NCBI GenBank assembly: GCA_024734495.1
Contig: JALMQS010000841.1
Coordinates: 1,306,233 to 1,370,232 of the forward strand
From: Forficula auricularia
Taxonomy: Eukaryota > Arthropoda > Insecta > Dermaptera > Forficulidae
DNA: 64,000 nucleotides
Direction: 5' to 3'
Shown: positions 2,492 through 62,315 of the stretch, piece by piece
Numbering within the stretch: the first letter of the stretch is position 1
Layout of the letters: each line of letters starts with the position of its first letter
Translations under genes and position numbers: made by a program
Notes under the pieces: generated by a model
The model's database searches: none
What the model was told of the DNA's origin: nothing
Seen by the model: the letters and a program-made list of their open reading frames with translations, nothing else

Positions 2492-2573
2492 TATAGTATG
2501 TTACATTCTTTATTTAAATAAAATTAATAAATTAATAGGTATTTTGGACAAATTTTATATTTTATTAATTTTT

Positions 2574-2611
2574 GCACAACGTTTCGTCCGTTTCCGGACT
2601 TTATCAAGTGC
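2574..2611 (-). ncRNA. Degenerate hammerhead-like motif
   Basis: The motif reads GCAC, TTGATAA, stem-loop GTCCG-GAAA-CGGAC, GAAAC, GTT, GTGC. Stem I (GCAC/GTGC) and stem II are fully paired. The core differs from CTGANGA at two positions (TTGATAA) and the cleavage triplet would be GTT, so activity is doubtful. It is the mirror partner of the motif at 2703-2740. Confidence 0.5.
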
Positions 2612-2702
2612 TGAAAAATGTGGCATATCATGTATAGTTGTATTTTGAAATATGCATTAATTTAATTTTCCCAATCTATTTTTCTTGTACTTTTGTTTTT
2701 CA

Positions 2703-2740
2703 GCACTTGATAAAGTCCGGAAACGGACGAAACGTTGTGC
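2703..2740 (+). ncRNA. Degenerate hammerhead-like motif
   Basis: Same reading as the left-arm copy: stem I GCAC (2703-2706) pairs with GTGC (2737-2740), stem II is GTCCG/CGGAC with a GAAA loop, then GAAAC and GTT. The core is TTGATAA rather than CTGATGA. Confidence 0.5.
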
Positions 2741-2806
2741 AAAAATTAATAAAATATAAAATTTGTCCAAAATACCTATTAATTTATTAATTTTATAGTA
2801 TGTTAC

Positions 2807-3954
2807 TTCCATGCAAACATTCATTCTATGTGAATTAATATGAGCTATTAGTTGTCCAGACTCACATACCTGGAGCCGTGCCTGAAAGGAGAGCAAGGAA
2901 AGATGGAATTAATCAGAACTACCAATAACTACTTAGAAATGAGTAGAAATTCGCAGAAAAGAAAAATAAACGTCTATAGTCATTGTCACATAAAAGTAGT
3001 CATAAAGGACTGCTATATTTTCCAAGCCAGATGAAATTTCGGGTTTGAACATTTTTCCAGGCCAATTGTCATTGATATTACGCCATATGCGTTGAATACA
3101 GAATAAAAATGTTTATCTGGCGGAATCTCGATGTGTTTTATTTGATAAACCAACATATTCTTTTGAGTGCAAATCATCCCTTTGTCTCATAATTTCAGAC
3201 AGAACAGATTGACGTTAATTTAATATTAATCTTACATGCCTTTTCCCTAAGCCCCTAAGGCATTCTAAACCCATCCATTTTCTATTATTGATTAAAAGTA
3301 ATTGTAAAACTTTTTCTAAACAGTAGGCTAAAAAACAAAGCATGTACCTATCTATGGAATAGAAATAAATAAAATTTTATTAAAAAAAATAGATACTTTT
3401 ATTAATCAACCACCAATAACAGATATCACCAAGAATCTTCTAGACATCTTAAAGACATACATATTACTTATCTCGTTGGTCTAGAAAACGTTTAGAAAAG
3501 CCTTGAACATATGCTTATTCTACATCTTCTAGATATACTTCTAGAGCTCTAGACACTTCTAGTCAGTGGATAGAGGGCTTATCTCAAATTTGAACTACAA
3601 TTTGATTTTAACTTATTAAGACCATTCAGAGATAGCCATAAAGCTTGGATTGACTGAAAATGTAAGAATTCGAGGGGGTATGATAAATCTTGTGAGAGGA
3701 AACTTAAATTTGATAGAATATTATATTTGACATCGAAAATACATGTTTGCAAAATTTCAAGAAAGTCTGTGAAAATGAGTGATAAATAACATCTCAGTTA
3801 ATTATTAAAAAAACAATAATAATAATAATAAAAACTAAATGCAAAAATATTAATTTTTTACATAATCTTAAATATATATTAAGACATTTTGTAGAATAAT
3901 TTTAAAGTATCTCACCAACAGCTCTAAAAGATATATTGAGAATCAAATGGCATT
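2807..3954. other. AT-rich sequence without recognised genes
   Basis: Only short ORFs without recognisable domains. The 60-codon plus-strand frame at 2852-3034 shows no family resemblance and is probably chance. Confidence 0.4.
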
Positions 3955-4068
3955 ATTTGTCGATTCTCAGATAGCAGGATCTGTTCTGGTCTTGTGATCT
4001 TACTATCTTGTGTGTTGATAGTAAGATCACAAGAATAGAGCTAGGCTCCTATCTGAGAATCGACAAAT
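3955..4068. repeat. Short foldback
   Basis: ATTTGTCGATTCTCAGATAG at the left is matched by its reverse complement at the right, and CTTGTGATCTTACTATC near the centre is likewise mirrored. The arms are interrupted by mismatched bases. No ribozyme core or TSD was found. Confidence 0.7.
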
Positions 4069-4184
4069 TATTAACAAATTTAAATATTTATATTTTATGA
4101 TTTTTCAACATCAAGGTCCGGAGTTTTCACCAATTATTGTCCTTTTTATAATTTTCAAAGATCCATTTTCATTTTCAATTCTTT

Positions 4185-4430
4185 ATATTGAGAAAGGAAT
4201 CTGATTAGCCGAGAGCTTAAAGACACTAGCCTTCTAAGCAGGAGTCCCGGGTTCGAGTCCGAGTCCCTGCATTGATATTTGACCGGCTATAATCTGATTC
4301 CTAGTCACCAATCCGTCTGGCAAGCGTGGTGACTTAATGCCAACCCCCTTCCATTTGATGGAAGAGGCCTATATTCAGCAGTGGATTGTCGCTATCGACA
4401 GGCTGATGATGATGATGATGATATTGAGAA
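4185..4430 (+). mobile_element. tRNA-derived SINE with GATGATGAT tail and 10-bp TSD
   Basis: Flanked by ATATTGAGAA at 4185-4194 and 4421-4430. The head looks tRNA-derived: an A-box-like TTAGCCGAGAG near 4206 and a perfect B box GGTTCGAGTCC at about 4249. The body runs to GAGGCCTATATTCAGCAGTGG and ends in (GAT)n. This tail type is common in insect non-autonomous retroelements. Being plus-strand with an intact B box, it could still recruit Pol III, but that is inference. Confidence 0.85.
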
Positions 4431-4809
4431 GAAACAAAAACTAGGAAAAACCGACCTTACCTTAATAAAATTATACTAAATACCTTATTAACAGAAAAGA
4501 TAAATATCCCAAGTTAAAAGATTTATCAAAAATATTTGTTATTTTGTTCATTTGCATTTGTGAATTGAAAGGATACGTTTTGAGCGTCTTCAGATATGAA
4601 TTTCGATCTAGCTTTGATCTACTTAATACAATAAAAATAATAAAATAATAAAAATGAAATAAAAATGATTCAGTCTTTGTGGATTTATCGTGGTCTGACC
4701 TAGTTTAAGACCCTTAGTGCTTATTGACCAAATCGTTCAACCCTACAACCCCTAGAGACTAGTACTCGCTTCCTGCCTTCATATTTCCCGCATACAATAA
4801 TCTTCAGTT

Positions 4810-5156
4810 GTTAATACCATAGAGTAATATAGAGTGGAAATCTCCATAAGGAGCCAATGTATTTTAGAGTATACGAGTTACAGAGCTCTCTGGCGAGACC
4901 AGGTCGGAACCATTGGGCAATAAAATGGCGGAAACCGCTCTCTTCGAGGCAAATTTTGGTGACATTCAAGAGTAAAACAGACGATTATATATATATAAGA
5001 TAAAGGGAATTTATCTTTTATCTATGATAAAGGCTTTGAATGTTCTATGTTCTTTGGATAGCTCTTAAAAACTAAGAGTTTTCGCCCTGCAGTCGCTAGA
5101 GGACGTTTTTTCTATATACGGTAGCCTTCCACTCTATATTACTCTATGGTTAATAC
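4810..5156. mobile_element. hAT-type MITE, 331 bp, 8-bp TSD
   Basis: The TSD GTTAATAC lies at 4810-4817 and 5149-5156. The element spans 4818-5148 with TIRs of about 24-30 bp beginning CATAGAGTAATATAGAGTGG. An 8-bp duplication is typical of hAT elements. There is no transposase ORF. The interior has a higher-GC block (about 4880-4960). Confidence 0.75.
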
Positions 5157-6299: not shown

Positions 6300-6358
6300 A
6301 CATATATATAAAATGATTACAAATCTTTCAAAAAACAATCCTTAAAACGTTTATTGAA

Positions 6359-6393
6359 TCAGACGTTTCGGGAGAATTTCTCCCTTTAACAAT
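6359..6393 (-). ncRNA. Degenerate hammerhead-like motif
   Basis: The motif reads TTGTTAA, stem II GGGAG-AAAT-TCTCCC, GAAAC, GTC. The GAAA and GTC elements are intact, but the CTGANGA box has decayed. Confidence 0.45.
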
Positions 6394-6446
6394 GCAATTT
6401 TTAAAATGAATAAAATAAAAAAGAAAAAAAGTTGTATTCTCTAAGG

Positions 6447-7686
6447 CAGTGTTTTTCAACCTTTTTCACCCCCTTAGTATGAAAAAAAATTTCGCGACCA
6501 CTTACCCCCCCGCTGTTTGTAACCTGTATTTTATTATGTTACAAATATCAAATCCGTAGAACATTTTTATTAATATTTATAATTATTAGGTATCGGTTAA
6601 ATACACAATTAAGTACCTATAACAGACATATTGTTCTTCGATTCGTTTTCGTTGACACAGTCTTATATTGGAGAAGTGGGGTCTGAGAAATTTTCTTAAA
6701 ATAAATGGAGCATTCCACGCCAAATAGGACTGTTTGAAAATTTTTAATTTTTGATTTCCTTCATTTATCGAATTTCGGTTTTTTGATCATAAATTCTTCA
6801 AAAATGGTCCAAATTCAAAATTTTTGTTTTTTTACATATTTACTTTTTAGAAAAAAATACAAAAAATTATTTAAAGTGTTTTTATATGCGATTTTTGAGT
6901 TTGAAAATTTTAATCTTGTTTTTGAAACTGTATGTACTCTTCGATTTTTTTTTTTTTTTTTTTTTTTTGATAATTTTTAACTTCTATCAATTCTACATAT
7001 TTTAAGAGTGGGTTGATCCTATGATAATTACTATTTTATTTTTATTTTTATTTTCTTTCAACAAACTAAAATATTAATTATTTTTTTTAAACACCTGTTA
7101 ACGATAAAAATTAATTCAAAATAACTAAAAAAAGAGAACTCAATATCAAAAAGTGGTTTTAATAATGATTAATAGCAAATAAATCAAAAATCGAAAAAAT
7201 AGTAATTATCATAGGACCAGTATGAATCCAGTCTTAAAATTTGTAAAATTAATAGAAGTTTAAAATAAAAAATTATCAAAAAAATCAAAAAGTACAGTTT
7301 CAAAAACATGATTAAAATTTTCAAACTCAAAAATCTTATTTAAAAACACTTTAGATAATTTTTTAATATATTTTTCTAAAAATTATGTAAAAAAACAAAG
7401 TTTTCAAAAATAAAAAATTTGAATTTGGATTATTTTTTAAGAAGTCATGAGCGAAAAAAAGAAATTAAGCCAAGTAATCTTTTAAACAGGTGATCAAAAA
7501 AATTTCAAAATTTTCCAGGAAGAGTTTTTTGATGGGTACTAAAAAAATGAAAGAAATCAAAAATTAAAATTTTTCAAACCGTCCGATTTGGCTCAAATAT
7601 ATTTTTAAACTTTGTTTTTTTTTTCTTTTTTTACTAAGGCTTCGCGACCTCCAATGGGGTCGAGACCCACAGGTTGAAAAACACTG
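6447..7686. mobile_element. hAT-like element filled by a long palindrome
   Basis: Ends CAGTGTTTTTCAACC and GGTTGAAAAACACTG resemble hAT termini, next to TTCGCGACC-type subterminal sequence on both sides. No matching 8-bp TSD is visible; an AG-rich microsatellite has grown beside the right end (about 7686-7703). There is no transposase ORF: the interior is the palindrome at 6722-7590. Confidence 0.6.
6722..7590. repeat. Long imperfect palindrome, about 870 bp
   Basis: The two halves are inverted copies with many indels. Shared blocks include TTTGAAAATTTTTAATTTTT, TTTTTGAGTTTGAAAATTTT, GTTTTTGAAACTGTA and ATGATAATTACTATTTT, and the centre is near 7110. The left half carries a poly-T run (6945-6968). 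No ORF with recognisable similarity was found. Confidence 0.75.
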
Positions 7687-7759
7687 AGAGAGATAGAGAG
7701 AGTGTTGTTTTCTAAACCTTAGAGAAAAAAACTTTTTTCTTTTTTTCACTTTAAAAATT

Positions 7760-7795
7760 GTATTGATAAAGGGAGAAATTCTCCCAAAACGTCTG
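7760..7795 (+). ncRNA. Degenerate hammerhead-like motif
   Basis: The motif reads TTGATAA, stem II GGGAG-AAAT-TCTCCC, AAAAC, GTC. Stem II is intact, but the first base of GAAA is A and the CTGANGA box is altered, so it is probably inactive. Confidence 0.45.
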
Positions 7796-7884
7796 ATTTC
7801 TTAATCGTTTTAAGGGTTGTTTTTTAAAAGATTTGTATTCATTTTAATTTTAAAACAATCAATATTTTTTTTTACATATATATA

Positions 7885-10095: not shown

Positions 10096-10096
10096 T

Positions 10097-10412: not shown

Positions 10413-10504
10413 TGAACGTTTAATTTTTTTTAATGAATCAATTTTATATGAATTAAAGAGTATCTCTTCTGCTCGAAAAACAAATTTTTTAATATATTTA
10501 TAAA

Positions 10505-10540: not shown

Positions 10541-10573
10541 TATTACAATTTATTCACAGGAATTGATGTGTGA

Positions 10574-13985: not shown

Positions 13986-14194
13986 TCGAATGAAAAACCA
14001 CAATGACATAATTATATATTTATAACCAGCTTATAACTTAACTTTTTTGCAACGAAATTTTCTCTGGAGAGAAACGGACTGGTAGAAATTTTAATTGAAA
14101 GTAATGGAAGGCAGCCCAGAGGTAGTGAGGAACGAAAAAATTAACACATATCAAATAAGGTGTAGTTTATTGGAATCCTTCCTCCTTTCCTTTC

Positions 14195-14237
14195 AAACCG
14201 ACGTTTCGGAGGATTTTTCTCTCCTTCTTCAGGGTTT
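14195..14237 (-). ncRNA. Hammerhead ribozyme motif, intact core
   Basis: Stem I AAACC/GGTTT, CTGAAGA, stem II GGAG...CTCC, GAAAC, GTC. The predicted cleavage site is just after the C at 14200 (minus strand). All core bases fit the CTGANGA / GAAA / NUH consensus. Stem III is only AC/GT, as in known Penelope-type hammerheads. Confidence 0.75.
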
Positions 14238-14468
14238 CAATGGGTCAATGAATGAAACAAATAAAATGTTTCCTTCTTCTCTCCACAGTAGTGTTCAAAA
14301 AATTTTTTCTTTTTTAACAAAGGCATAGAAAAACAATTTTTTTTCCTCCTTTTCTTAATTAGAATTCCATTTATCTATCTAATTAAGAAAAGGAGGGAAG
14401 AAAATTTTTGAAAACTACTGTGGAGAGAAGAAGGAAACATTTTATTTGTTTCATTCATTGACCCTTTG

Positions 14469-14511
14469 AAACCTTGAAGAAGGAGGGAAAAATCATCCGA
14501 AACGTCGGTTT
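14469..14511 (+). ncRNA. Hammerhead-like motif, one core change
   Basis: Stem I AAACC/GGTTT, TTGAAGA (first C changed to T), stem II GGAGG...ATCC, GAAAC, GTC (14504-14506). Confidence 0.6.
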
Positions 14512-14626
14512 GAAAGGAAAGGAGGAAGGATTCCAATAAATTACACCTTATTTGATATGTGTTAATTTTTTCTTTCCTCACTACCTCTGGGCTGCCTTCC
14601 ATTACTTTCAATTATAACTTAACTTT

Positions 14627-15689: not shown

Positions 15690-16715
15690 AATCCAATTTA
15701 CCAAGTTTCTAAATTAATGCGAAATATTTTTAAGGGTGATTTTTCAGCAAAAATTAAGGGGGTCTTTCATATAATTTTTTGTTCAAATCCTCTTGCCCTC
15801 CAAGTTACAGCCCTCTAAATTCAGCGGGGAAATTGTTTTTATTTAATATATCCACTATGGAAAAATTTAGAAGAATGACATTTAGCCGATAACTGATGTT
15901 AATAAAATGACAGTTTTTCACTCTATAATGTTATCACAAGAGGATGAAAAAATCAACCCCTATAATAATAATAGTTTGCATGAAAACTTTTTAATGGGTC
16001 TAAATTTCCCTATTTAAAAACTTGGTTTAAAAAGAAGTATTCCATCTGCAACTTTTTCAATTATATCTTGACCTTTTCTCATAAAATTGTTTGTTTGATC
16101 ACAGAAAAATAAAATAATACTCAAACCCTTTTTCCATAAATTCATAGATTGAAAAGTTTTTGTTTTGCCGAGAGTAGCAGAGTTGTTGATTCACAAAGAG
16201 AAACAAAGAGGTTGTCCTCTGCTTGATGCAAATAAACATATACACATATATCTCAAGATGATATATCTGTATATATATTATTTATTTGTTTGAACAAATA
16301 AATAATATATATACAGATATATCATCTTGAGATATATGTGTATATGTTTATTTGCATCAAGCAGAGGACAACCTCTTTGTTTCTCTTTGTGAATTCATAG
16401 ATTGGTTATTATTTGTTAAAAAAATCAAGTGGGGTGATGTTAAATGAAGTCATAATGACAAATATTTTTATTGATATGAATCGTCAACAACTGCCATTTT
16501 ATTAGCATAAGTTATCTGTCAAATTTCATTCTTCTATAATAAATTCCTCCATAATGGATATATTAAATAAAATCAATTCCCCCCAACTAAATTTAGAGGC
16601 CTCCAACTTGGAGGGAAAGAGGTTTTGAACAAAAAATTATATGAACGACCTCCCATTAATTTTTGCTGAAAAATCACCCTTTAAAATATTTCGGATCAAT
16701 TTAGAAACACTCTGT
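15690..16715. repeat. Large palindrome interrupted by a younger insertion
   Basis: The left arm (about 15690-15920) and right arm (about 16480-16715) are inverted copies with roughly 80-85% identity by eye. Shared blocks are GGTGATTTTTCAGCAAAAAT, ATAATTTTTTGTTCAAA and GTTAATAAAATGACAG. The element at 16152-16391 is inserted in the spacer. No ribozyme core or ORF was recognised, and the outer TSD is not clear. Confidence 0.7.
16139..16404. mobile_element. Near-perfect palindrome with 13-bp TSD, centred near a ribozyme cleavage position
   Basis: TSD AATTCATAGATTG at 16139-16151 and 16392-16404. The element (16152-16391) has a left-only tail (AAAAGTTTTTGTTTTGCCGA...) and then a nearly perfect 200-bp palindrome. 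At the centre the left arm, read on the minus strand, begins TCAAACAAATAAATAAT. That is the sequence that follows the predicted cleavage point GTC/TCAAAC in the single-arm copy at 54456. The right arm starts 3-4 nt further in. No hammerhead remains in this element. Confidence 0.85.
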
Positions 16716-20078: not shown

Positions 20079-21462
20079 TAACTTATTTTATAAATATTTA
20101 AAATAAGAAACTCACTAAAATACTTTTGATAACTTGAAACTTAGAAAGTGAACGTTACGAATACAGGGAGTTTTGCCAAAATGTCATTTAAGATGTTTTA
20201 GCGTATGTAATTAGACTTTTTTTCGAAAATTTGTATAGTTACTTATAGTTATATAAATTTTTATCGTTAAGTATAATCATGATCGAATTTTATATTTTGC
20301 TATTTTAGTCACCAAATGAGCAAAAGCCGACTTTAAGCAGTATGTACAGCGAACTAACCAACTCAATATAAATATAAGCTAAATAATTGCGTTAGCCAAA
20401 AGCGCCCAGGGGTTTAAATCTGAAAAATATTGCTATTTAGTGTTGAATTAAAAAAATAAATGCGATTCGTTTATTACTTAATTTATAAGGGAATGTTATA
20501 GTTATTTGACAGGTTATTTAAATGATGGAATAAAACATCAATGGAATGGATAATATTTATTTGAAGTTAATTAAATATATGTAGGTATATACAAAAGTTA
20601 GAAAAACAATCCTCTTACATAATAGTTTAATTTTTTTCTTTTTATAATATATATTTATTTATTTATATTTATTATTATATCTTAGAATAGTTTATTAAAC
20701 AAGAAATATAATATTTATAATGTAAAAGAATGTATAGAAGAGAATATAGCTTTTGTGCTTTCCAGGATCAAGGTAGGTGTAGAGCTCGGATTTGCAAAAT
20801 CTACGATTTCAATTTCACACAAAACATTTCTTATGACATATAATAGAAAGGTTTTAATCGTTGACTTTTTCTTCATTTTTTTTTTTAATTGCATTTGCTT
20901 GCATATTTCGCGAGACTAAACATTAAGCTGAAATTGCCATGATTTCAATATGTATATTGTATAATATATATTATTTTATTCAGAGGCAAAACCACAAATA
21001 AAAGACAATAAACATTTTTCGAGGATGATATTTTAAAATGGTCCAAATTTGTATATCTTAACTTGTATCTTATTTTATCTATATCACAAATTCTGTATAT
21101 ATTTTTCTATTGGAGTTAATTTAGAATTTAATTCAATATAGCTTGATGCACATGGACGTTAACTGATCTGCGTTAATCGTTGTTTTTAAAATATAATTCT
21201 TCCAAACCAGACGGGTAACACAGATGGGTTAACTATCGTGTATATCCTATAGATATTATGATTTTAATATGCATGATTTCATTTTGTCAAATTAATTTAA
21301 TCTATCGGTAAAGTTTTTTACATATTTTGGAAATAAAACCATAATAAAAAAAGTATACTCATTTTTTTGTTTATTTTTTTTAATTTAAATTTATATGTAT
21401 AATTAAACAAAAATATGCTAAATTTTAGTTATATATTAGATATTACATTTAAATGAAAATAA
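20079..21462. other. AT-rich sequence without recognised genes
   Basis: Nothing supported. A patch at 20755-20815 is less AT-rich without an ORF. Confidence 0.4.
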
Positions 21463-21531
21463 ATATTAATTAATAAAGTAAAGGGAGTGTAGTTTCACAG
21501 TGAATAGAATAAAACTCAAAGAGGTTTATAC

Positions 21532-21573
21532 AAACTCAATTATTTCGGATAATTAGTTCATCATCAGGAGTTT
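21532..21573 (-). ncRNA. Hammerhead ribozyme motif with ATT cleavage triplet
   Basis: Stem I AAACTC/GAGTTT (6 bp), CTGATGA, then a weak stem II (TGAACTAATTATCC), GAAA, TAATT. The core boxes are intact. The cleavage triplet would be ATT, allowed by the NUH rule but usually slower than GTC. Confidence 0.6.
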
Positions 21574-21599
21574 ACAGATTAAAACTGTTTTTAATCTGT

Positions 21600-21638
21600 A
21601 AACTCCTGATGACTAATAATCCGAAATATATTGAGTTT
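21600..21638 (+). ncRNA. Hammerhead ribozyme motif with ATT cleavage triplet
   Basis: Stem I AAACTC (21600-21605) pairs with GAGTTT (21633-21638). CTGATGA is at 21606-21612, GAAA at 21623-21626, then TATATT. Stem II (CTAATAATCC) is very weak in this copy. Confidence 0.55.
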
Positions 21639-22089
21639 GTATAAACCTCTTTGAGTTTTATTTCATTCACTGTGAAACTACACTCCCTTTACTTTATTAA
21701 TTAATATCATGTTTTACCTAAAACCTACACCACTTTCCCTAAATAAAAAAATAAATATGGATGATTAGAAGGTAAAACAGCAACCTATATGGTTCTAATT
21801 TCATAGCCTTAAAAAAAAGATATACGTGTATAGTTGTATGTGATGTTTGAAATGAGGCGTAATTGATTAAAAAAAAGTATTTCTTCTTTTTAATTTTCAT
21901 ATGTGGTGATATGTTGAATAGTATGGAAAATTTTTTAGTGCAAATAATTTGAAGTCATATTCTTAACTCATTTTATATATGTATTTGCAATACTTTTCTA
22001 ATTAAATAAATTAAATAATATAATTTAAAAGATTAAAAATTCACAGTTCATTGGACAATGTTTTTTATTGAAGCTCTTATTCAACCTTT

Positions 22090-22127
22090 GTACAACGTTT
22101 CATCTCTCTCGAGACCCCTTCAAGCAC
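22090..22127 (-). ncRNA. Degenerate hammerhead-like motif
   Basis: Minus-strand copy of the motif at 22279-22316. Stem I is GTGC/GTAC with a G-U pair, stem II GTCTC/GAGAG. The GAAA box reads GAAAC in part only (TGAAACGTT). The CTGANGA box is decayed. Confidence 0.4.
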
Positions 22128-22278
22128 TCAATTGGTTAGAGCAACATTGGTTGAGATAACAATAAAAAATAAAAATCCATCTAGACTTATTTTATTGTAT
22201 CAATCTAGAAAGAAAAAATTCTACTATGTCTCAATTATTTTTATTGTTATCTCAACCAATGTTGCTCTAACCAATTGA

Positions 22279-22316
22279 GTGCTTGAAAAAGTCTCGAGAG
22301 AGACGAAACGTTGTAC
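22279..22316 (+). ncRNA. Degenerate hammerhead-like motif
   Basis: Stem I GTGC/GTAC, TTGAAAA in place of CTGANGA, stem II GTCTC-GA-GAGAGAC, GAAAC, GTT. Same subfamily as the motifs at 2574 and 2703. Confidence 0.45.
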
Positions 22317-22370
22317 AAAAATTGAATAAGAGCTTCAATAAAAAACATTGTCCAATGAAGTGTGAATTTT

Positions 22371-24690
22371 GAATCTACTAATTATAATGAACATTAATCA
22401 ACATAATAATTTAAAAGGTTTTCCAGTATTTTATTTCATTCCTAAAAATGGATGTGAAAAGAAGAAATAAAATATGCACAAATTCCTGTTTCTTTTTTTA
22501 TTTTGCAATTTTCATTATTTAATTAATATCACAAAAAATATTTTGAAAAAAGAAAATGTAATTAAAGAGATGAAATGGATATTTTTTCATTTAAATCTAA
22601 TAAACGTAACTAAATTGATGTTTAATTTAATTATACAAATAAATTAAAATTTTCAGGTGATTTCCGTTCATTCGTCAATGATATTTTTGAAGAAAATTTA
22701 ATAAAATAAAAACAAATGAAAACACGTTTTGTTTTTTGTTTTTTCAATTTTTTGTGGTTACTTTCAAATGTAATAGTAAAAGACTTTCAATTACTAAATT
22801 ATAATTGTGTTCAATTGAACGAATAGAATTTATTTTGAAGAATGTTATGCATAAAATGTCAATATAATTTAATTTTGTAAGCCCTTAGGAACTCAATGAG
22901 AAGTGTCTCGAAAAGTTATTTCTTCAAAATAAACTCGATTCTTCTCAAGTTTATCAGATCTTAACGTTGCGTCTATTAAATTATATACTTCATATTAAAT
23001 AAAAAAAAAGTATATATTAAATTGTTGAAAATATATAAATATATCTACTATATACATTTTCAACAATTTTACCAAAGCTTTAACCAACATTTTTTCCTGG
23101 GATAAAATTTCGCCTCTGAATTATCATATTCAATAAAATATTCATAAGATTTCTTTATGCATCCTGATTTATGTTTATATTGTATTATAAATAATTCTTA
23201 AATGCGATTGCGGGAAGGAATCAGAGATTAGAAGAGATATCACTCATTTATAGTATATATATAAAAATATCATATTTTTTTTTTTTATAAATTTTACCAT
23301 TTTTTATTTTTTATTATGTTTTTTTTTTGTCTTAGTTAATTTTTTTCTTAAGATATGTCAACGGAAGGGGCAGGTTTAAGTGTGCCTTTTCAAGCGTTTT
23401 CTGGCAAAGTGCAATTTTGCATTTAGAAAGGGAGGGCAGAAATTTTCAACTTTTTTTGGCTTTATCCTAATGTCAAGTTTCTCACTTTTATTAGCATTAG
23501 AAATATCATTTAGCCGACAGTTTTCAAAGCGTATATTATAAGAAAAATATTTTTAAACGAAATGTCAAATGAAAAAATATCTATAAAAATCATATAAGTA
23601 ATAATAATAATACTATATTACAATATATTGCTAGCATTCTTTGCCCAAGCAGTAAAACGAGGGTCAAAAGAGTGAGCTTGGCAGACTTTGACCGTTACCC
23701 GCTTATACATTTTTTGCTTATAAAAATAAATAGATATTTTCAAATGAAATTACATTTAAGTATGGTAATTTATACCAGTTAGCAATAAATGCTAATCAAT
23801 GAAGGTTTCGCTCAATGTAATGTGGAAACGAGATAGAGAGCTATATATAGTCTGCATCGGAATATTTTTACCCGTTTTACATTTATATGAAAACCCAAAG
23901 CGTTTTATTATCATTATCAATATTTTAATTAATATCTATTATAGCGAAAATTTAATAATACTAGTAAAGGCAGTGAAAGTAAAGAATAATTTCTCTTGGT
24001 TGATGAATTTTCGTTAAGAGAAAATATTCTCTAAATTGAAATAAAAATACGTCAATGGCCTCGTAGCCTACACGTCAATAAACCGAAATAAAAATACAAA
24101 AAATAAAAATGTTTAAACAATAAAAGTTAAATGTTTTGGATTCAAAATTTAATATATGAAATTATGAGAAAATATTTTAATTTTATTGAGTGTGAAGAAA
24201 GAGTAACGAGTCAAAAAGTACTAATCAAACATAGTTTGTAGGTTGTGAACAGTATTATTATTTTTCTATTTCTATTTTGGTATAAATTCATGCAATGTAT
24301 AAAAATTTAAATGTTTGAGCGACTTCAGATACATTTTTGATAAAGGATAGTAGATATTAAAAAATGGTTAGAATTCCCAATAGCTAAATTAATCTCTAAT
24401 TTATGAAATGCAAAGTACTAGAATATAAAGTCAATATTTAGTTTTTCAGAAGAAAGAATGTAAAATGTTCAAAAGTCTTTTATATCTATGTTAAATACAG
24501 AGTACCCACTACAAAACCCAACCATTTAAATAATATTGTATAAAATAATAATAGCCTGCTCAATATCCGACAAAACACAAGAATCTACTCGTCTACATGT
24601 AGCCAACACGCACAGTATAATATAACAAGAACAAATATAGCTACTCAAGCATTAAAAGACAGAGGATCACAGCTTAGGCCCATGCCTCTG
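22371..24690. other. AT-rich sequence without recognised genes
   Basis: No gene supported. The 72-codon plus-strand frame at 23799-24017 has no recognisable domain. A short direct repeat (GAAATAAAAATAC) flanks 24040-24098. Confidence 0.4.
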
Positions 24691-25200: not shown

Positions 25201-25357
25201 ACACTTTAGTCTTCACCACTTCCCTAAACAAAACTTAGATAAAGTGATGTAGGCTGATGTTGAAACATTTTGCTAAATTATAATTAGTTGGAAGTTTATG
25301 GTGTTTCACGGTAAGGAAAACTAAAAGTATAAATAGAGTTAAAACATATAGCTAAAT

Positions 25358-25399
25358 ATCTCAATATATTTCGGGTGATTAGCCCATTATCAAGAGTTT
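25358..25399 (-). ncRNA. Degenerate hammerhead-like motif
   Basis: AAACTC, TTGATAA, stem II TGGG-CTAAT-CACCC, GAAA, TATATT, GAG. Stems I and II pair; the first box has two changes. Confidence 0.45.
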
Positions 25400-25445
25400 A
25401 TATTGACAAACACAGTCAATGTAAACTCCTGATGATAACTCAAAA

Positions 25446-27040: not shown

Positions 27041-27094
27041 TATTGAGATTTTTTCTTTTTTATATTGAGATATTTAACTATACGTATGTTTTAC

Positions 27095-30634: not shown

Positions 30635-30742
30635 ATAAATGATAATTATTAAAGTCCATAACATCCATATTATTTAATTAATCAAGTACGTTGGCAGGTA
30701 CTTGGACAGGTATGAAGCAAATCAAAAAATTGTTATTGATTT

Positions 30743-30783
30743 ACGCGACGTTTCGCCAGCTTTATTTTGGCTTCATCAGGCGT
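30743..30783 (-). ncRNA. Hammerhead ribozyme motif, intact core (best copy)
   Basis: Stem I ACGC/GCGT (4 perfect pairs), CTGATGA, stem II GCC...GGC with loop, CGAAAC, GTC. Every conserved core position fits. Stem III is AC/GT without loop. Confidence 0.8.
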
Positions 30784-30966
30784 CTCAATGATTATGATTA
30801 ATACCAAGATATAACAGATGTGCACATATTTATGAATAAAATGAATTGTAATCTTTTTTTTTAATATAAATTGGATCATTGTTCAAACAATAAAAATAAT
30901 TAATTATATATAATATCATAAATATATGCACATCTGTTATATCCCAATATTAATCATAATTATTGA

Positions 30967-31003
30967 GACGCCTGATGAAAAATAAAGTTGGCGAAACGTC
31001 GCG
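30967..31003 (+). ncRNA. Hammerhead ribozyme motif, intact core but weak stem II
   Basis: Stem I ACGC (30967-30970)/GCGT (31000-31003), CTGATGA (30971-30977), CGAAAC, GTC. Stem II has lost its 5' GCC (reads AAAAATAAAGTTGG), so folding is impaired compared with the left copy. Confidence 0.65.
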
Positions 31004-31085
31004 TAAATCAATGACACTTTTTTGATTTGCTACCTACCTGTCCAAATACCTGCCAACGTACTTGATAAAATAAATGATAATAATT

Positions 31086-38731: not shown

Positions 38732-38738
38732 CCTGGCA
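38732..38738 (-). promoter_or_regulatory. Splice acceptor before the start codon
   Basis: On the minus strand the sequence reads TTTGTTGCCAG/GATGC, a good 3' splice site placed one base before ATG 38731. It implies a 5' UTR exon upstream at coordinates above 38740. Confidence 0.6.
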
Positions 38739-38739
38739 A

Positions 38740-50583: not shown

Positions 50584-51276
50584 AGTAATAATAAATAACT
50601 TTTAAGGAGTTAGGTGTTGGTTCTAGGTGAAATATTTTAATATAATAATAAAACTTGAGCAAGATGCGAGGTAGGTTTCACAAAAAATCATTCGACCGCT
50701 AATAATAACCCTATCCCCATTCATTTCGAAAGAAATGGCCTTAAATTGGATCTCTTAGAATCCACAGAAATTAAAATAGCGCTATCAAATAATTCAAATA
50801 TTTTAAATAACCAATTAGAAGTGCATAAAAATACAATTATTGATTATATATTATAATAAATTAACTAAAAATTCCATCTATTGTTCGCACATTGAATGTA
50901 TTAAGGTAATTGTACTCTCTCAGTCACTTTTCCAGTTGTACCCTGTCAGGTACGTTCCCATTCTTTAATATAATAGTAGGTAGAGCTTCCCTTCAGCTGG
51001 TTCAAAACTCAATTTTTTCATTTGTCGAAAATATTAATTCTTAGAAGAACTTCCCTTCTTACCCCTACTTTCCCCTCACCACATACATTTCAAAAAATAT
51101 TAAAAAAATTGTTATTTGTAAAATTATTTTTCCATTGTAAAATCAATTTACTTTGACTCCTGATGATGGGCTCACCCCCGAAATATATCGAATTCAAAAC
51201 TCAATTTTGTTTTATTTCTTTTTTGTGAAACCTACCTCGCATCCTGCTCAAGTTTTAATATTATAGTAATAATAAA
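50584..51276 (+). mobile_element. Ribozyme-type element with truncated inverted arm, 12-bp TSD
   Basis: AGTAATAATAAA at 50584-50595 and 51265-51276. The left part is an antisense 3' end: a tail, then AACTTGAGCAAGATGCGAGG...GTTTCACAAAAAA. The right end is its mirror (51220-51264). Only the last 50 or so nt are mirrored, so the left arm is a short partial copy and the right arm is the unit with its hammerhead. Confidence 0.75.
51152..51198 (+). ncRNA. Hammerhead ribozyme motif with ATC cleavage triplet
   Basis: CTGATGA at 51160-51166, stem II GGG-CTCA-CCC, CGAAA at 51179-51183, TATATC, then GAATTC. Stem I is TC/GA plus TTTGA/TCAAA around a small internal loop. Core boxes intact; ATC satisfies the NUH rule. 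Confidence 0.65.
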
Positions 51277-53560: not shown

Positions 53561-54345
53561 GCTAACGTTTCGAGATAATTTCTCTATTACTGAATTTTAT
53601 TATCAATTTCTGATTCCTTAGCTTGGATTTTTCTCTTACGAGATGCATGGAAGGTATTATCATATCACGATTCTAAAATCACTAAAAGAGAAAAACAAAT
53701 AATTTTAGAAAAAACCGACTTGCAAAATAAATGCAACAAAAAATAATAAGAACTCAAAAATAAAAAAACACACAAAGATATGAAATATCGATTAATTTAC
53801 ATAACTAAACGATGAAATTTGTTATGAAATCATTTTTGAAGTTTCTACTAAATCAAACTATATAAAAAGTTATGATGTTGTTTTCATCTCAATGGAGAGA
53901 AGATCCAGAGGTATCAGAGAATACACACAGAATTGTCCCATAAAAGCGGATTCGAACGCCAATCAACCCCATCCCACCGAATAACCAAATTGTTATCAAC
54001 GACTTCAACTCTAGAGTGCATTTTATTTTATTTTGAGTTCTATTATTTCATCTTTTGTTGCATTTAATTTTTTGAAGTTGTTTTTTCAAACCTATATTAA
54101 ACCATAATATAACTGATTTTACTTTACTTTTTTATCTTCGTCTTTCAGCTAACAGTCAAATTTACGATACTATTATATTTTTAAATTTTTCTTCTATCCA
54201 AAATCAGATTTTAACCATTATAATTGATACTTCTAAACCAACGAATAAACACAATAAACTACTATTTTCGTGTTCACAAATAATTTATAACTAATTATGT
54301 GTGATTTTAATAAAATTAACTTTATTAGTTCCTAGCCCTCCAGCA
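53561..54345. repeat. Diverged 'ACCGACTTC' palindrome-type sequence
   Basis: 53570-53720 parallels 43560-43740 (CTCTTACGAGATGCAT, then AAAACCGACTT...). A decayed hammerhead-like stretch lies on the minus strand at 53570-53605 (GAGAAATTATCTC, GAAAC, GTT). AAAACCGACTT at 53710 and TTGAAGTTG at 54073 mark eroded ends. Confidence 0.45.
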
Positions 54346-54546
54346 GTGACGAAAGAACACCAAGTTTTCAATATCCATATGATATTGACTCCATGAAAAA
54401 CATTTATAATTGAAGAAAGACTGATGATGAAGACCAAGTCTTCGAAACTATAGTCTCAAACAAATAAATAATATATATACAGATATATCATCTCGATATA
54501 TATGTGTGTATGTTTATTTGCATCAAGCAGAGGACAACCTCTTTGT
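54346..54546 (+). mobile_element. Single-arm ribozyme retroelement copy
   Basis: Contains the hammerhead at 54419-54457 and, right after its cleavage point, the full arm sequence of the 16152 palindrome (TCAAACAAATAAATAATATA ... CAACCTCTTTGTTTCTCTTTG). It ends in CATAAAATG, next to ACCGACTTC repeat material. The 5' part (about 54346-54418) is unit sequence that the palindrome lacks. The left boundary is approximate. Confidence 0.7.
54419..54457 (+). ncRNA. Hammerhead ribozyme motif, intact core
   Basis: CTGATGA (54421-54427), strong stem II GAAGAC-CAA-GTCTTC, GAAA (54444-54447), stem III AC-TATA-GT, GTC ending at 54455. Stem I is only GA/TC. Predicted 5' product starts TCAAAC at 54456, the sequence found at the centre of the 16152 palindrome. 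Confidence 0.75.
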
Positions 54547-54735
54547 TTCTCTTTGTCATAAAATGTATATGTTTGCCACCGACTTCAAAAAGTGATTTCA
54601 TGTAACAATTTCATCGTTTAGTTGTAACTAAATTAGATAATTACTTTATACCTTTTAGTGCAGTTTATTTTATTTTTGAGTTCTTATTATTTTATTTGTT
54701 GCGTTTAATTTTTTTGTTTGAAGTTGGTTTTTTCA
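54547..54735. mobile_element. 'ACCGACTTC' palindrome, single arm
   Basis: GCCACCGACTTCAAAAAGTG ... TTGTTTGAAGTTGG parallels the right arm of 43693-44163 (AGTTGTAACTAAAT.AGATAA, TTTATACCTTTTAGTG). Confidence 0.65.
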
Positions 54736-55780
54736 AAAAATTATATTAAAATCACACATAATTGATATTTTTTTTACTTTTCATCCTTTCTAGCCATCAG
54801 TCAATTTACGATACTATTATATTTTAAAATTTTGTCTTCTATCTAGGGATCAGATTTTAACACATAATTGATATTGAACACGAATAAATAATACAATAAA
54901 CTACTATTTTTCGTGTTCAATGAATAATTATAATTAATTATGTGTGATTTTAATAAAATTTCAACTCTTAATAAAATTAATTACAAAAATAAAAGCTACA
55001 ACAGCTTCATTTCCAAAGTTCAATTTATTTATTTTATTGGAAATTTTTGAAAAGAAAGGATGAGGAGAGAGGGGGAGAGATACCAATCGATTTGATTGGG
55101 GAATAATGGAATTGAAATAATTATCGGAAAAGAGTTTTTTTTATCTAATTAGATTTTTCCTCTTATTAAAAACAAGGACTAAAGATTAATAAGGACACTC
55201 GATGGTGGAGAAGCAATCTCCGAAATCGAAGCTAAAATACAAGGTATACATTAATTAATGTAAAATAATTGGTTTAATAAAATTTATAAAAAAAAAAAAA
55301 AAAAAAAAATTTTGAAAAGAATCCATATTTTTTAAATTTACAAATTACATGAAAGATAATTTTTTTAGCTATTATTTAATTCAATATCAGAAGAATCAAA
55401 AGAGATTAAAATTTATACAACATAAAATGGATTCATGTTTGTTATTTGAACGCTCTCAAATGCTCTAAAGTGTTTGAAATAGCAAACTCTCTTTTCTTTT
55501 CGTAGAGTATCTCTTCTAATTCTTTGGAATTGATTATATTGTGTTAAACTAGTAGGCCTAAAGTTAGAAATAAAGCAATACCTTTGGTAAGAAGTTTTAG
55601 AGTAAGCCTACCGTTATTCCTCTATTTGAAAGTGGTCAGCTTGTGTAACTAAATAAATCAATTATTCGACTAGTTTACTTAGGTGAACAGTTATTTACTG
55701 ATTCTAAATAAACGAGGTCTTTTTCTTTATATTTTCAAACAATTATAAAAATAGCTTTTCAGAAATGTATTCCTACAAAT
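54736..55780. other. AT-rich sequence with direct repeats and a poly-A run
   Basis: Segments near 54760-54960 repeat 54110-54310 (TTTACGATACTATTATATTT, AATTATGTGTGATTTTAATA). A run of 21 or so A lies at 55289-55309. No gene. Confidence 0.4.
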
Positions 55781-55785
55781 TGATA

Positions 55786-55975
55786 GAGTTTTTCTTTAGG
55801 AGACGGACTGGTATAAATATGCAATTGGATGTTGATGAAAGCAGTCCACGGTGGTTGTAAAAAAATAAGACTATAGAGGTTTTATTATTTTACATTTATT
55901 TGTTAAACCGACGTTTCGGAGATTTATTCTCTCCTTCTTCAGGGTAACAAAAAGTCAATGAAAGTAGTTCAAATC
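55786..55975 (-). mobile_element. Single-arm ribozyme retroelement copy
   Basis: Minus-strand unit with an intact hammerhead. Its 3' end (left side, TTTAGGAGACGGACTGGT) matches the shared 3' tail of the 14046/61778 family. No mirrored arm follows, and the right boundary near AGTCAATGAAAGTAG is approximate. Confidence 0.65.
55905..55947 (-). ncRNA. Hammerhead ribozyme motif, intact core
   Basis: Stem I ACC/GGT, CTGAAGA, stem II GGAGA...TCTCC, GAAAC, GTC. All core bases are present. Confidence 0.7.
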
Positions 55976-56680: not shown

Positions 56681-56684
56681 ATGT

Positions 56685-57180: not shown

Positions 57181-57242
57181 ATTTGGATTTAATTTCGAAC
57201 CCAAGTCATCATTAATCCCAAATGGACAAGGTTTTTAAGGTA

Positions 57243-58983: not shown

Positions 58984-59882
58984 ATAGAAAGAATTTATTG
59001 ATTAGTTTTTTGAGAATTTTTTTATATAACTATATATAACCAAACTTCTTGAGGATACAAATTCTCATTTAAATAGGTGTTGGTTTTATAAGTAACACGT
59101 TCAAAAGAAAATTTTATGAATCAATCTTTATAAGAAAGAACTTAACTGAAACTGTGAATTTTAAGGTAGACATGGGAAATAATAGTAAATATTACTCGGG
59201 AATTTTAAAGAAAATTAAAATTTAAACTCATTTAGATAATTGAAATATGTTTGGGGGGATTTGGTGTGTTGAGTTGGCAATAAGTTCAGTTGTCAAATAG
59301 GATTTGAATCTAACGGTCAGAGATGTATGAAAGAGCCTTTAACCTTAAAGTAGACACGGAAAATAATAGTAAATATTACTCTGAAATTTTAAATAAAATT
59401 AAAAATCATTTAGTTAATTTAAATATGTTTCGGGGATTTGTTGTGTTGAGTTGGCAATAAGTTCAGTTGTCAAATAGAATTTGAATCTAACAAACGGTCA
59501 GAGATTTATGAGTCTTTAACCTTGAAACTTTATACACAAATAATTGTTAAACAAAAGAATAATGTTACATACTCTAATAATTTTGATGTGAGGGAATTTT
59601 TTCCCATCTTTAGATTGTTCCAAGGAATGTCATTTTGTTGTTATTTTTAAGTTGTTGTTGTGTGGAGAAATTGTCATTGTAGAAAAATTATGTAATGATT
59701 GAAATGTTTTAGGATGATAATGACATACTTGAAAATGTCGAAACGTTCCTGGTAACAATAACATAAAATAAAGAAAATTAATTGATAAAAATGTGTTTTT
59801 TGTCATAAAAGAATAAAACCAACACCTATTTAAATGAGAATTTGTATCCTCAAGAAGTTTGGTTATATATAGAAAGAATTTA
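58984..59882 (+). mobile_element. Ribozyme-type element, partial inverted arm, 14-bp TSD
   Basis: ATAGAAAGAATTTA at 58984-58997 and 59869-59882. A left-only tail (TTGATTAGTTTTTTGAG...), then a 60-bp inverted 3' end (TATATAACCAAACTTCTTGA...TTGGTTTTAT), mirrored at 59811-59868. Inside, a 178-bp unit is tandemly duplicated (about 59165-59340 and 59341-59520; TTGAGTTGGCAATAAGTTCA). The hammerhead-like motif is near the right end. Confidence 0.8.
59711..59750 (+). ncRNA. Degenerate hammerhead-like motif
   Basis: Stem I AGG/CCT, ATGATAA in place of CTGATGA, stem II GACAT-ACTTGAAA-ATGTC, GAAAC, GTT. Stems pair well; two core changes. Confidence 0.45.
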
Positions 59883-60375
59883 ATTTTTTAGGACAAATTC
59901 TCGGATTTTAGTAGAAAAGATGCTCAAATCTTTTGATTTATGTTTTAAATATTTTTTTCCATGTACATTTATTTACTTAGCGTATGGTTTTTCACATAAT
60001 TGTACATACATCATATATATACATCAGCAATTAGAAAGACAATCACATAGGTCAAGGGAAAGATAAAAAAAATTGAATATTTATAAAAGTAAAAATAAAG
60101 TATAGAGTAAAAAGCAGGCATCTAGTTCTAAATGATTAGGTTAAAATAGCTATTTGTACATTTGTACATACGATAGCTTTTATAGTTTTTCTAAAAAAAT
60201 AGCTGGCGTTTTGTGGTCTGCAAAGCTGAAAAGAAGCTCCAAAAGCCATTGACTTGTGTGTAGAAATAACGTAAAAAGGTAAATTTTACTCAAATGAAAT
60301 TTAAATCTTAAGTTATTTTTCAGCTCAATATATCACAGCCAATTTTAAGTTAATATCTCCAGATGTAGCTCTTTC
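59883..60375. other. AT-rich sequence without recognised genes
   Basis: Nothing recognised. Confidence 0.35.
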
Positions 60376-60489
60376 CAAGGTAGCAAAATGTTTCAAACTA
60401 TATAGTAACTATATAGTGCCTATATAGATTTAAAATCTATATAGGCACTATGTAGTTACTCTATAGTTTGAAACATTGTGCTACTAGGG
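60376..60489. repeat. Foldback, 114 bp
   Basis: GTAGCAAAATGTTTCAAACT and TAGTAACTATATAGTGCC are mirrored around the centre GATTTAAAATC. No ribozyme core. Confidence 0.8.
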
Positions 60490-60649
60490 TTACTTCTGGT
60501 GTTTTTAAGTTTTCGAAAAATTGTCTAAGCAAAATATATAAATTTACAAGATTGGATATTGAGAATATTTTAAATTTATTTTCAAGGAATTTTATGAAGA
60601 TGCTTTATTTATTATTATAATTTTTTGATTTTCTTCAACAAAACAACAC

Positions 60650-61005
60650 AGGAACCTTTTGCAAAAAGAAATCGGTCCACGTGGCAAAAAGTTCTCGCTG
60701 AACATAGATAAAATAAATAAATATTTAGGTACCTTGACTATATTGGAGCTATACTGATCCAAACGGAGAAAGAATCATTAAAATCGGTTCATAAACTAAG
60801 AAGTTATGCATGAACAAACATAACAAAAAAGGTCCAATACCAATGAAATTTATAGTTTTACCAATCGGAAACTAGACTGAATCCAAAGCAAAAAAAATCA
60901 TCAAAATCGGAACACGATTGGTGAAGAAATCAGGTAACATAGACACACAAAAAAATGCAGTCGAATTGAGAACCTTCTCTTTTTTTGAATTCGGTTAAAA
61001 AAGGC
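60650..61005. mobile_element. 'ACCGACTTC' dispersed repeat, reversed copy
   Basis: Reverse complement of the blocks at 43147 and 52858: AATCATTAAAATCGGTTCAT, CCAATCGGAAACTAGACTGA, then CAGTCGAATTGAGAACCTTC to GAATTCGGTTAAAAA. Confidence 0.6.
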
Positions 61006-61765
61006 TGCAGGTTTGACAATGAATGTATCCTAAGATATTGGTATCAATTGGGTTAAAAATAAAAATAACTTTTCTTTTAATTTAATTAACTTTGATGATT
61101 GTTTTTAATTAATTTTAATTTATTTATTTTAATTGTGGTTTGTTATTAATGCAGGCTATAAAATAATTTTGTTTGAGTAGTACCTCGATTTTTTTGCGAT
61201 TTATCTACACATGAGGCATTGTGAATATTAAAATCATGTGCCTTTTATATATACTAGTATTTCAACAATATAGGTCAAAAATTCTAGGAGATATGAAGCT
61301 GTGATAGTAGAACGGACATGACGAATTATATGGGCTTCTAGTTAGTATAGAATCCTAAAATTGGAATGATGCAAATTTGGAGAAATCTTTTATTCTTTTA
61401 TTTAACATAGGGTTAAAAGATATTAATCTTAGATAGGCGAATGAAAATGAATGAAAGAGGCGTTTAGAGGAATCTACTTTACTATAAAAATAAAGTACAT
61501 AAAGAGATTTACAGGAGATTAGGAATGTGAAGAGGTCAAAGATTAGATCCTTTTGCACTGGTCCCAGTTGAAAGACTAGTTAACAATGGTATTCTGATTA
61601 AGGAAGAAGGACGAACTTTTGAAAACGCCGAGAATTAATTGAAATTTCTTTAAATTATTTATACAAGATGTGTCTAGAACTTCACCCTCAAAAAACAATT
61701 CACCAAATAATTTAGATTAATTGGGCTTTTATGAGAAAAAAAAACTAAAATATACAGACAGAAAG
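61006..61765. other. AT-rich sequence without recognised genes
   Basis: The 67-codon minus frame at 61355-61558 has no family signature. Confidence 0.35.
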
Positions 61766-61905
61766 ACATTTTATAATGCAACGAAATTTTCTCTGGAGAA
61801 ACGGACTGGTGGAAATTTTAATTGAATGTAATGGAAGGCAGCCCAGAGGTAGTGAGAAAAGAAAAAATTAACACATATCAAATAAGGTGGTTCCTCCTTT
61901 CCTTT

Positions 61906-61948
61906 CAAAGCGACGTTTCGGAGGAATTTTCCCTCCTTCTTCAGGGTT
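61906..61948 (-). ncRNA. Hammerhead ribozyme motif, intact core, mismatched stem I
   Basis: CTGAAGA, stem II GGAGG...CCTCC, GAAAC, GTC, all intact. Stem I AAACC/GCTTT has one mismatch. Confidence 0.65.
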
Positions 61949-62160
61949 TCAAAGGGTCAATGAATGAAACAAATAAAATGTTTCCTTCTCCTCTCCACAG
62001 CAGTGTTTATAACTTTCTTCTTTTTTAACAAAGGCATAGAAAAACAATTTTTTTTCCTCCTTTTCTTAATTAATGCCTTTGTTAAAAAAGAAGAAAGTTT
62101 TAAAAACTGCTGTGGAGAGAAGAAGGAAACATTTTATTTGTTTCATTCATTGACCCTTTG

Positions 62161-62200
62161 AAACCCTGAAGGAGGGAAAAATCCTCCGAAACGTCGGTTT
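62161..62200 (+). ncRNA. Broken hammerhead motif
   Basis: Stem I AAACC/GGTTT and GAAAC-GTC are intact, but a 3-nt deletion turns CTGAAGAAGG into CTGAAGG, destroying the A of the first box and shortening stem II. Confidence 0.5.
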
Positions 62201-62315
62201 GAAAGGAAAGGAGGAAGGATTCCAATAAATTACACCTTATTTGATATGTGTTAATTTTCTCCCTCCTCACCACCTTTGGGCTGCCTTCCATTACATTCAA
62301 TTAACATTTTATAAT

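Follow-up and report, generated by a model that had tools for sequence, protein, structure and literature searches.

The window analysed here, a 64,000-nucleotide stretch of the Forficula auricularia genome (contig JALMQS010000841.1, forward-strand positions 1,306,233 to 1,370,232), contains a series of palindromic insertions with inverted arms that carry hammerhead-ribozyme motifs. Comparison with related loci elsewhere in this A+T-rich genome (1.06 Gb, 845 contigs) makes it quite probable that Penelope-like elements (PLEs) of several families gave rise to the palindromes, which mostly consist of the pseudo-long terminal repeat (pLTR) only and would have been made by copying onto both target strands with two start sites. 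The central observation is that exactly one of the two arms bears a 3' tail in 74 of 76 callable insertions from three families (F6, F4, and PLE-A).

One tailed arm per insertion

We sampled F6 at 86 loci, consisting of L001 to L088 minus three duplicates, plus the window. F6 arms lying within 3 kb of each other were almost always arranged with the left arm on the minus and the right arm on the plus strand (61 '-+' and 2 '--' neighbours, with no '+-' or '++'), and 25 of the 86 loci had no '-+' pair. A 21-mer from F4 had 7013 exact matches in the genome and its reversal had none; among 98 of 100 matches listed from these 7013, neighbours within 2 kb comprised 21 '-+' and 1 '++'. Separately, loci L009 and L010 (contigs C96 and C490) have inward-facing F6 arms (+/-) about 9.5 kb apart, beyond the 3-kb limit; the order in one mirrors that in the other, as though a single stretch occurred at both places.

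A target-site duplication (TSD) of at least 10 bp flanked 34 of 49 F6 pairs, compared to 3.7% when flanks of different insertions were paired, and 37 of 61 pairs in the larger F6 set, where these TSDs were 93% A+T. For F4, 9 of 10 pairs had a TSD of at least 10 bp. With the minimum repeat set at 9, lengths in 39 F6 pairs ranged from 9 to 16, counting any overlap with the element end; the fixed TSD length that the preliminary description of this DNA had linked to ordinary DNA transposons was not seen. F4 and F6 both combine TSDs, tails, head-to-head pLTR-like pairs, and A+T-rich targets.

The 3' ends of F6 arms fall at one of two sites, S (..ACTTGATTAATT) or, 28 nt later, L (..GGACTTTAAT), and tail scores were bimodal. 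The one-tail rule held for 56 of 58 called F6 pairs (31 LS and 25 SL, with 1 LL and 1 SS; 3 more were ambiguous), including 35 of 35 called pairs with a TSD of at least 10 bp. It also held for 10 of 10 F4 pairs, eight of them fetched from 21 listed pairs with short ones chosen and two from the window, and for 8 of 8 called PLE-A pairs. Of the 13 PLE-A pairs encountered, 4 were left uncalled and 1 lay at the edge of a locus; seven of the called pairs lay in flanks of loci fetched otherwise or beside a GIY-YIG match and one in the window. This near-constant pairing of a tailed with an untailed arm suggests that reverse transcription starts at a different site on each of the two strands.

Insertions in the window

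To find arms within the window, we took the 25 longest of 138 inverted repeat pairs. The preliminary description had named eleven palindromic insertions with inverted arms, and eight of these sites (2505, 6311, 10455, 14046, 21463, 22036, 30651, and 61778) have arms among the pairs listed. At 25338 the pairs listed show only the arms of a nested element (25456-27029), and the palindromes at 25338, 50596, and 58998 were identified by eye. The orientation reported for them, left arm minus and right arm plus, recurred at every window site with two arms seen. The claim of a hammerhead in nearly every arm reaching far enough was sound in that descriptor matches far exceed shuffled controls, as described below, but overstated in that a hammerhead-like motif was found in only one arm at 50596 and at 58998. 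We also found a palindrome at 16139-16404, both arms of which begin immediately 3' of the hammerhead, and two copies with a single arm, at 54320-54557 and 55780-55962. The insertions are as follows.

2493..2806, F1 insertion, head-to-head; TSD ATAGTATGTTAC at 2493-2504 and 2795-2806 (by eye); left arm 3' end 13 nt longer (by eye); core UUGAUAA in both arms (2607, minus; 2707, plus)
6309..7846, F2 insertion; arms 6309-6423 and 7732-7846, 1.3 kb apart; cores UUGAUAA and UUGUUAA
10451..10668, F3 insertion; hammerhead CUGAUGA..GAAACUAUAGUC; distant PLE-A relative, 83.7% over 43 nt
14031..14626, F4 insertion; TSD TTATAACTTAACTTT at 14031-14045 and 14612-14626; left arm tailed, right arm untailed; core CUGAAGA (left)
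16139..16404, PLE-A insertion; TSD AATTCATAGATTG at 16139-16151 and 16392-16404 (by eye); left arm pLTR 279-424, tailed; right arm pLTR 282-383, untailed
21448..21722, F8 palindrome; motif of the CUGAUGA..GAAAUAUAUU type, by eye
22025..22381, F5 insertion; hammerhead cores UUGAAGG (left) and UUGAAAA (right), GAAACGUU
25340..27080, F7 palindrome, split by a nested inverted-repeat element; left motif UUGAUAA..GAAAUAUAUU, right motif CUGAUGA; by eye
30635..31081, F6 insertion; TSD ATAAATGATAAT at 30635-30646 and 31070-31081; left arm tailed, right arm untailed; hammerhead CUGAUGAAGCC..GGCGAAACGUC^GCG
50600..51270, palindrome; one hammerhead-like motif at about 51157-51190, plus strand, CUGAUGA..GAAAUAUAUC; by eye
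54320..54557, plus strand, PLE-A single arm, 98.7% identical to the autonomous pLTR; CUGAUGA..GAAACUAUAGUC; untailed end
55780..55962, minus strand, F4-like single arm; hammerhead CUGAAGA..GAAACGUC; bounds by eye
58998..59870, palindrome; one hammerhead-like motif at 59714, plus strand, core AUGAUAA; bounds by eye
61766..62315, F4 insertion; TSD ACATTTTATAAT at 61766-61777 and 62304-62315; left arm tailed, right arm untailed

An autonomous element shares the arms

A genome search for GIY-YIG domains gave 3423 first-look candidates, of which 150 were scored; all 150 were above the cut-off, several had open frames of about 858-864 amino acids, and neighbours among them within 6 kb were 11 '-+', 2 '--', and 0 '+-'. 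One locus, L089, has a single open reading frame (ORF) for an 827-residue protein with an RVT_1 reverse transcriptase (RT) match at 359-558 (E 1.9e-15) and a C-terminal GIY-YIG match at 720-759 (E 7.6e-6). Its direct pLTRs at 1-379 and 3429-3806 are 379 nt long, 99.7% identical, and both carry the hammerhead CTGATGATGAAGACCAAGTCTTCGAAACTATAGTC (CTGATGA..GAAACTATAGTC), with the ORF starting about 200 nt past this motif. A homology search returned insect proteins as the best named relatives, and in L090 and L091 an inverted pLTR arm adjoins a truncated ORF. Judged by its sequence, this element, PLE-A, is an endonuclease-containing PLE with a predicted hammerhead in its pLTR. On the gene strand of L089, we also observed that the start of the PLE-A ORF is doubled in tandem at 436-1475 (436-959 and 957-1475, 98%).

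The PLE-A pLTR is 98.7% identical to window positions 54320-54557 and 100% identical to both arms of 16139-16404, and the window therefore holds insertions of an autonomous PLE. This result bears out the link to PLEs drawn in the preliminary description, which had called for a full element with RT and GIY-YIG domains sharing these ends. For F1, F2, F4, F5, F6, and F8, no autonomous partner was found, although no systematic search was made, and these families may be non-autonomous, as that description suggested. Regular expressions for RT and GIY-YIG, run on the six frames of the window, returned two weak strings and nothing convincing. Locus L011 resembled a pLTR-ORF-pLTR element, but we rejected it as the autonomous partner of F6 because its 956-residue ORF is, by eye, that of an APE-type long interspersed nuclear element (LINE). 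At L011:737-5325, the right arm of an F6 palindrome is followed by this LINE ORF in a 3.28-kb direct tandem, with each LINE copy preceded by an F6 arm.

Long inverted arms and small size are also properties of miniature inverted-repeat transposable elements moved by a DNA transposase. Such an origin is extremely improbable here, as the ends of 74 of 76 called insertions differ by the tail rather than forming identical terminal inverted repeats, TSD length varies, arms are often unequal at the centre, and the same pLTR flanks an RT/GIY-YIG ORF.

Subfamily and 5' extent of paired arms

Across 29 F6 insertions spanning 300-580 nt, the two arms agreed in 231 of 246 cells at 13 subfamily-diagnostic columns, compared to 64.5% agreement for permuted partners (SD 4.3%, maximum 81.1% of 2000 permutations). 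This agreement bears on whether the strands could be copied from two separate RNAs of a pool, held one per strand in a protein dimer that follows no start-site rule, with only discordant products being joined or surviving. The anole enzyme uses both start sites on both strands in vitro, according to the accessible part of PMC11167929, as such a scheme would have it, but the concordance of the arms speaks against independent templates, even if subfamily succession could mimic it, and we regard this scheme as rather unlikely.

Of 49 F6 pairs, 47 could be measured at their 5' starts, and in 23 of these 47 the starts of the two arms lay more than 15 nt apart. Among unequal F6 pairs with called tails, the untailed arm was longer in 12 and the tailed arm in 10. 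Head-to-head copies reaching into the PLE-A ORF (8 examined of the 11 GIY-YIG '-+' pairs) had arms with different starts in 7 of 8 cases, from 15 to about 1300 nt apart, with the arms of L092 starting at the same position; at their centres, four copies had overlaps of 1-10 nt and four had gaps of 1-8 nt. F4 arms at 8 fetched loci started 4-35 nt apart, as judged from blast ends, and L093 has a single PLE-A ORF arm only. We set aside F6 starts at consensus position 93, seen in several arms, as probably reflecting a diverged subfamily rather than true ends. Where full-length F6 arms meet, their 5' ends are themselves close to palindromic (AATTAAA..TTTAATT), as has been reported for pLTRs of Adineta.

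These extents also test a fold-back origin, in which one cDNA would snap back at its 3' end, at a palindrome at the 5' end of the element, copy itself, and be inserted as a hairpin. Self-priming of this kind was suggested for Adineta PLEs, there on an antisense template (PMC3846280, in the part available), and it would account for the common subfamily of the arms, for the 27 of 49 F6 pairs that align to their own reverse complement through the centre, and for the 24 of 47 pairs with arms equal within 15 nt. Under fold-back, however, the copied arm should regularly be both untailed and shorter, and the absence of polarity in the unequal arms (12:10) argues against its simple form, as do the different element positions at which F4 arms and 7 of 8 PLE-A ORF copies begin. 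We consider fold-back unlikely. Because paired arms differ both in their 3' ends (74 of 76) and in their 5' extent (23 of 47 for F6), they are not two copies of a fixed unit. The separate retrozyme-like class of inverted unit dimers inferred in the preliminary description is not supported; the arms look like 5'-truncated products of PLE retrotransposition.

Hammerhead motifs without stem III

We searched for hammerheads with a descriptor consisting of YUGANRA, stem II, GAAA, a short stem III, NUH, and stem I. The window had 6 matches, compared to a mean of 0.4 and a maximum of 3 in 40 dinucleotide shuffles, and the strict CUGANGA core had 3 matches versus 0.025 per dinucleotide shuffle. With a palindromic stem III in the descriptor, 74 matches were found in 311,715 bases of window and fetched loci versus a mean of 0.4 in 10 block shuffles, with 51 of the 74 belonging to F6, the family whose hammerhead served to fetch most loci. 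An Rfam scan of the window returned no hammerhead family, either at the gathering score or at E values up to 10, and the matches listed were mostly microRNA models fitting long hairpins. The covariance-model search proposed earlier was therefore negative for Rfam families, with matches recovered by a suitable descriptor; the Rfam models are probably silent because they expect a real stem III. The motifs have the hammerhead core with stems I and II and lack, as monomers, a stable stem III. What lies between GAA and the cleavage base is a palindrome with no loop (ACGT, ACTATAGT, or ATAT-like). The open two-stem fold was the minimum-free-energy structure for 3 of 8 sequences folded (F1, F4, and F5). 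Folding as dimers gained 1.8 to 12.6 kcal/mol over two monomers (-1.8 to -12.6), which is no proof of dimeric action.

When positions 3 and 8 were left free, the 51 F6 matches comprised 47 C3-G8, 2 C3-A8, and 2 U3-G8, and the 23 others comprised 13 C3-G8, 6 U3-A8, 2 A3-A8, 2 U3-G8, and 0 C3-A8. This sample is small and copies within one family are not independent; moreover, one non-F6 C3-G8 match (L001) is an F6 variant and one U3-G8 match (L042) looks spurious. The descriptor gave U3-A8 in F1 and F5 and also in two families that lie elsewhere in the genome (L076 and L085), and by eye it was seen in F2 and in the motif at 25390. For the hammerhead of the anole PLE, combining C3G with G8C brings back part of the cleavage (PMC11167929, in the portion seen), and a paired change at positions 3 and 8 would therefore fit a retained fold. 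A literature search on C3U/G8A with hammerhead turned up no hammerhead paper.

Arm starts at the predicted cleavage site

The predicted PLE-A hammerhead would cleave after pLTR position 278. Among 21 PLE-A arms of at least 89% identity with a called 3' end, 4 arms from 3 insertions started exactly at 279, namely the two arms of L014, one arm of L013 (plus), and one arm in the window, at 16293 (left). The L014 centre reads TTTGTTTGA|TCAAACAAA, with copies of a 10-11-bp repeat ending AGATAAAGTC on either side (by eye). The remaining 17 starts were all distinct (one is the reference end and one lies at a locus edge). By a rough hand estimate, the chance that 3 of about 11 insertions would fall within 1 nt of a pre-set position is a few in a thousand. 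These starts suggest that hammerhead-cut RNA is reverse transcribed. Of six F6 arms inspected for ends near the cleavage site, three keep the hammerhead, displaced by indels, and the other three break off close to it (L046 and L080 to within about 3 nt, L055 slightly beyond, by a few nt); these are too few and too diverged to count.

The two L014 arms are also what would be expected if circular RNAs of the retrozyme type, arising as hammerhead-cut monomers, were inserted as inverted dimers by the PLE machinery. We judge this origin very unlikely, since direct tandem neighbours are rare (2 '--' versus 61 '-+' for F6), most measured starts lie elsewhere, many of them upstream of the cleavage site, and the hammerheads have no stem III loop.

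A model for integration and its weak points

Two-strand copying from two start sites, the reading we prefer, could proceed as follows. The PLE protein would make a cut in each strand of an A+T-rich target, with the two cuts about ten bases from each other, and each cut 3' end would prime reverse transcription of PLE RNA from one of two internal start sites, S or L, the latter about 28-45 nt further 3', with one site used per strand. One RNA, or sister RNAs of one locus, would serve both arms, some templates having been cut by the hammerhead before copying, as the arms that begin at the cleavage site suggest. Both cDNAs would run toward the RNA 5' end and be joined in the middle. The resulting insertion would have its arms head-to-head, with the 3' ends of the element facing outward, and would be flanked by a TSD; exactly one arm would carry the tail, each arm would be truncated at its 5' end independently of the other, and the two would meet with a short overlap or gap. 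The parts of this scheme that are features of the sequences themselves are the geometry, the TSDs, the one-tail rule, the common subfamily, the lack of polarity in unequal truncation, and, for PLE-A, the autonomous partner. We put forward more tentatively, and as somewhat likelier to fail than to hold, the broader proposal that PLE integration is obligately asymmetric, with one RNA or sister pair copied twice from different start sites, that some of the templates are cut by the hammerhead in the living animal, and that the core has changed from C3-G8 to U3-A8 in several families.

Several observations weigh against this interpretation. All loci sampled come from one genome. PLE-A pLTR matches within 1.6 kb of each other gave 13 '-+', 5 '--', 1 '+-', and 1 '++', counts that include split matches and neighbouring insertions. 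The two F6 exceptions to the one-tail rule, L066 (LL) and L086 (SS), are unexplained, and neither has a 10-bp TSD. Subfamily sharing between arms could also stem from subfamily succession over time or from gene conversion between arms, and arms equal at the centre are what fold-back would give as well. For the anole element, the accessible text of PMC11167929 reports no strand difference in start site, and the insertions here use both sites. The cleavage-site footprint comes from three insertions, a small number, and the starts in L013 and at window position 16293 have a 1-nt ambiguity; two further PLE-A arms, in L090 and L091, begin at the base of stem II, 10-12 nt before the cleavage site, where the polymerase could have paused. 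Finally, F6 and F4 loci were found by exact strings across the cleavage site, and arms starting there were therefore selected against.

As a rule, one tail per insertion can be counted and strongly constrains how PLEs could integrate, and arm ends at the cleavage site, if true, would be a genomic sign of ribozyme cutting in vivo with the product still copied. With thousands of arms in one genome (7013 exact 21-mer matches), both can be tested by computation alone. At stake are the integration route of PLEs, described as a third class of eukaryotic retroelements, and the role of hammerheads that lack stem III. The later steps of PLE integration were left for validation in PMC11167929, and the role and activity of PLE hammerheads were termed still a mystery in PMC7761336, in the parts of these papers available.

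Other features of the window

The element nested in the F7 palindrome (25446-27040) has arms of 146 nt at 25456-25601 and 26884-27029 (97%) and, by eye, a Tc1/mariner-like transposase reading frame. At 8679-9262 lie two inverted, mutually facing pieces of a mariner-like transposase gene (named by eye), and an element of about 0.27 kb at 5150-5450, with inverted ends of nearly 40 nt including CAATACAGGACAGCCTGTCAAAATC (by eye), is perhaps a DNA-transposon derivative. A 143-nt palindrome beginning TTTGGCACCGACTTCAAAA, in which no hammerhead was seen, occupies 43752-44116 and has relatives at 54570-54731, adjoining the PLE-A arm, and at L090:1-260 (gene strand). A near-perfect hairpin of 79 nt at 60393-60471 matches a microRNA model below the cut-off. 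The 295-residue open frame at 37952-38839 has apparent membrane segments, and we take it to be perhaps a host gene of the TMEM200 type.

Comparison with known systems

Minimal type I hammerheads of PLEs and their dispersed copies were reportedly described by Cervera in 2014 and Lunse in 2017. According to the part of PMC7761336 available, such motifs lack the non-conserved nucleotides of helix III, occur in metazoan genomes and in PLE pLTRs, and are thought to act as dimers; several families here differ from them in having U3-A8 instead of C3-G8. Metazoan retrozymes (PMC7229834, in the accessible portion) are likewise small repeats with type I hammerheads and are non-autonomous, and their mobilisation by PLEs has been suggested (PMC7761336, same part); they are arranged in direct tandem and mostly have stem III with loop-loop contacts, whereas the arms here form inverted pairs and have no stem III loop.

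The PLEs of Adineta vaga, as presented in the sections of PMC3846280 consulted, have inverted pLTRs in head-to-head order, TSDs, and an 'optional' tail, with the inverted repeats ascribed to self-priming. Here, in contrast, one tail is near-universal in the three families sampled, and the unequal arms lack the polarity predicted by simple fold-back. A tail may have looked optional because, under the one-tail rule, about half of all arms would carry one. The portions of the PLE literature examined contained no statement of a rule of one tail per insertion or of insertions that end at the hammerhead site.

Close parallels exist with Poseidon PAc of Anolis carolinensis (PMC11167929, in the part available), which combines RT and GIY-YIG domains with a stem-III-less hammerhead near the pLTR-ORF junction, cuts and extends both strands of A+T-rich targets, and starts RT at either of two neighbouring internal sites, which accounts for the tail. 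The PLE-A ORF starts about 200 nt after the hammerhead, whereas the PAc ORF starts inside it. In the anole, no RNA-seq reads begin or end at the hammerhead site and cleavage is dispensable in vitro, whereas three PLE-A insertions here end at that site. Within the literature consulted, the kind of element is already known, since head-to-head pLTRs, tails, TSDs, and minimal hammerheads have been published for PLEs; the new part is the one-tail rule and the cleavage-site footprints.

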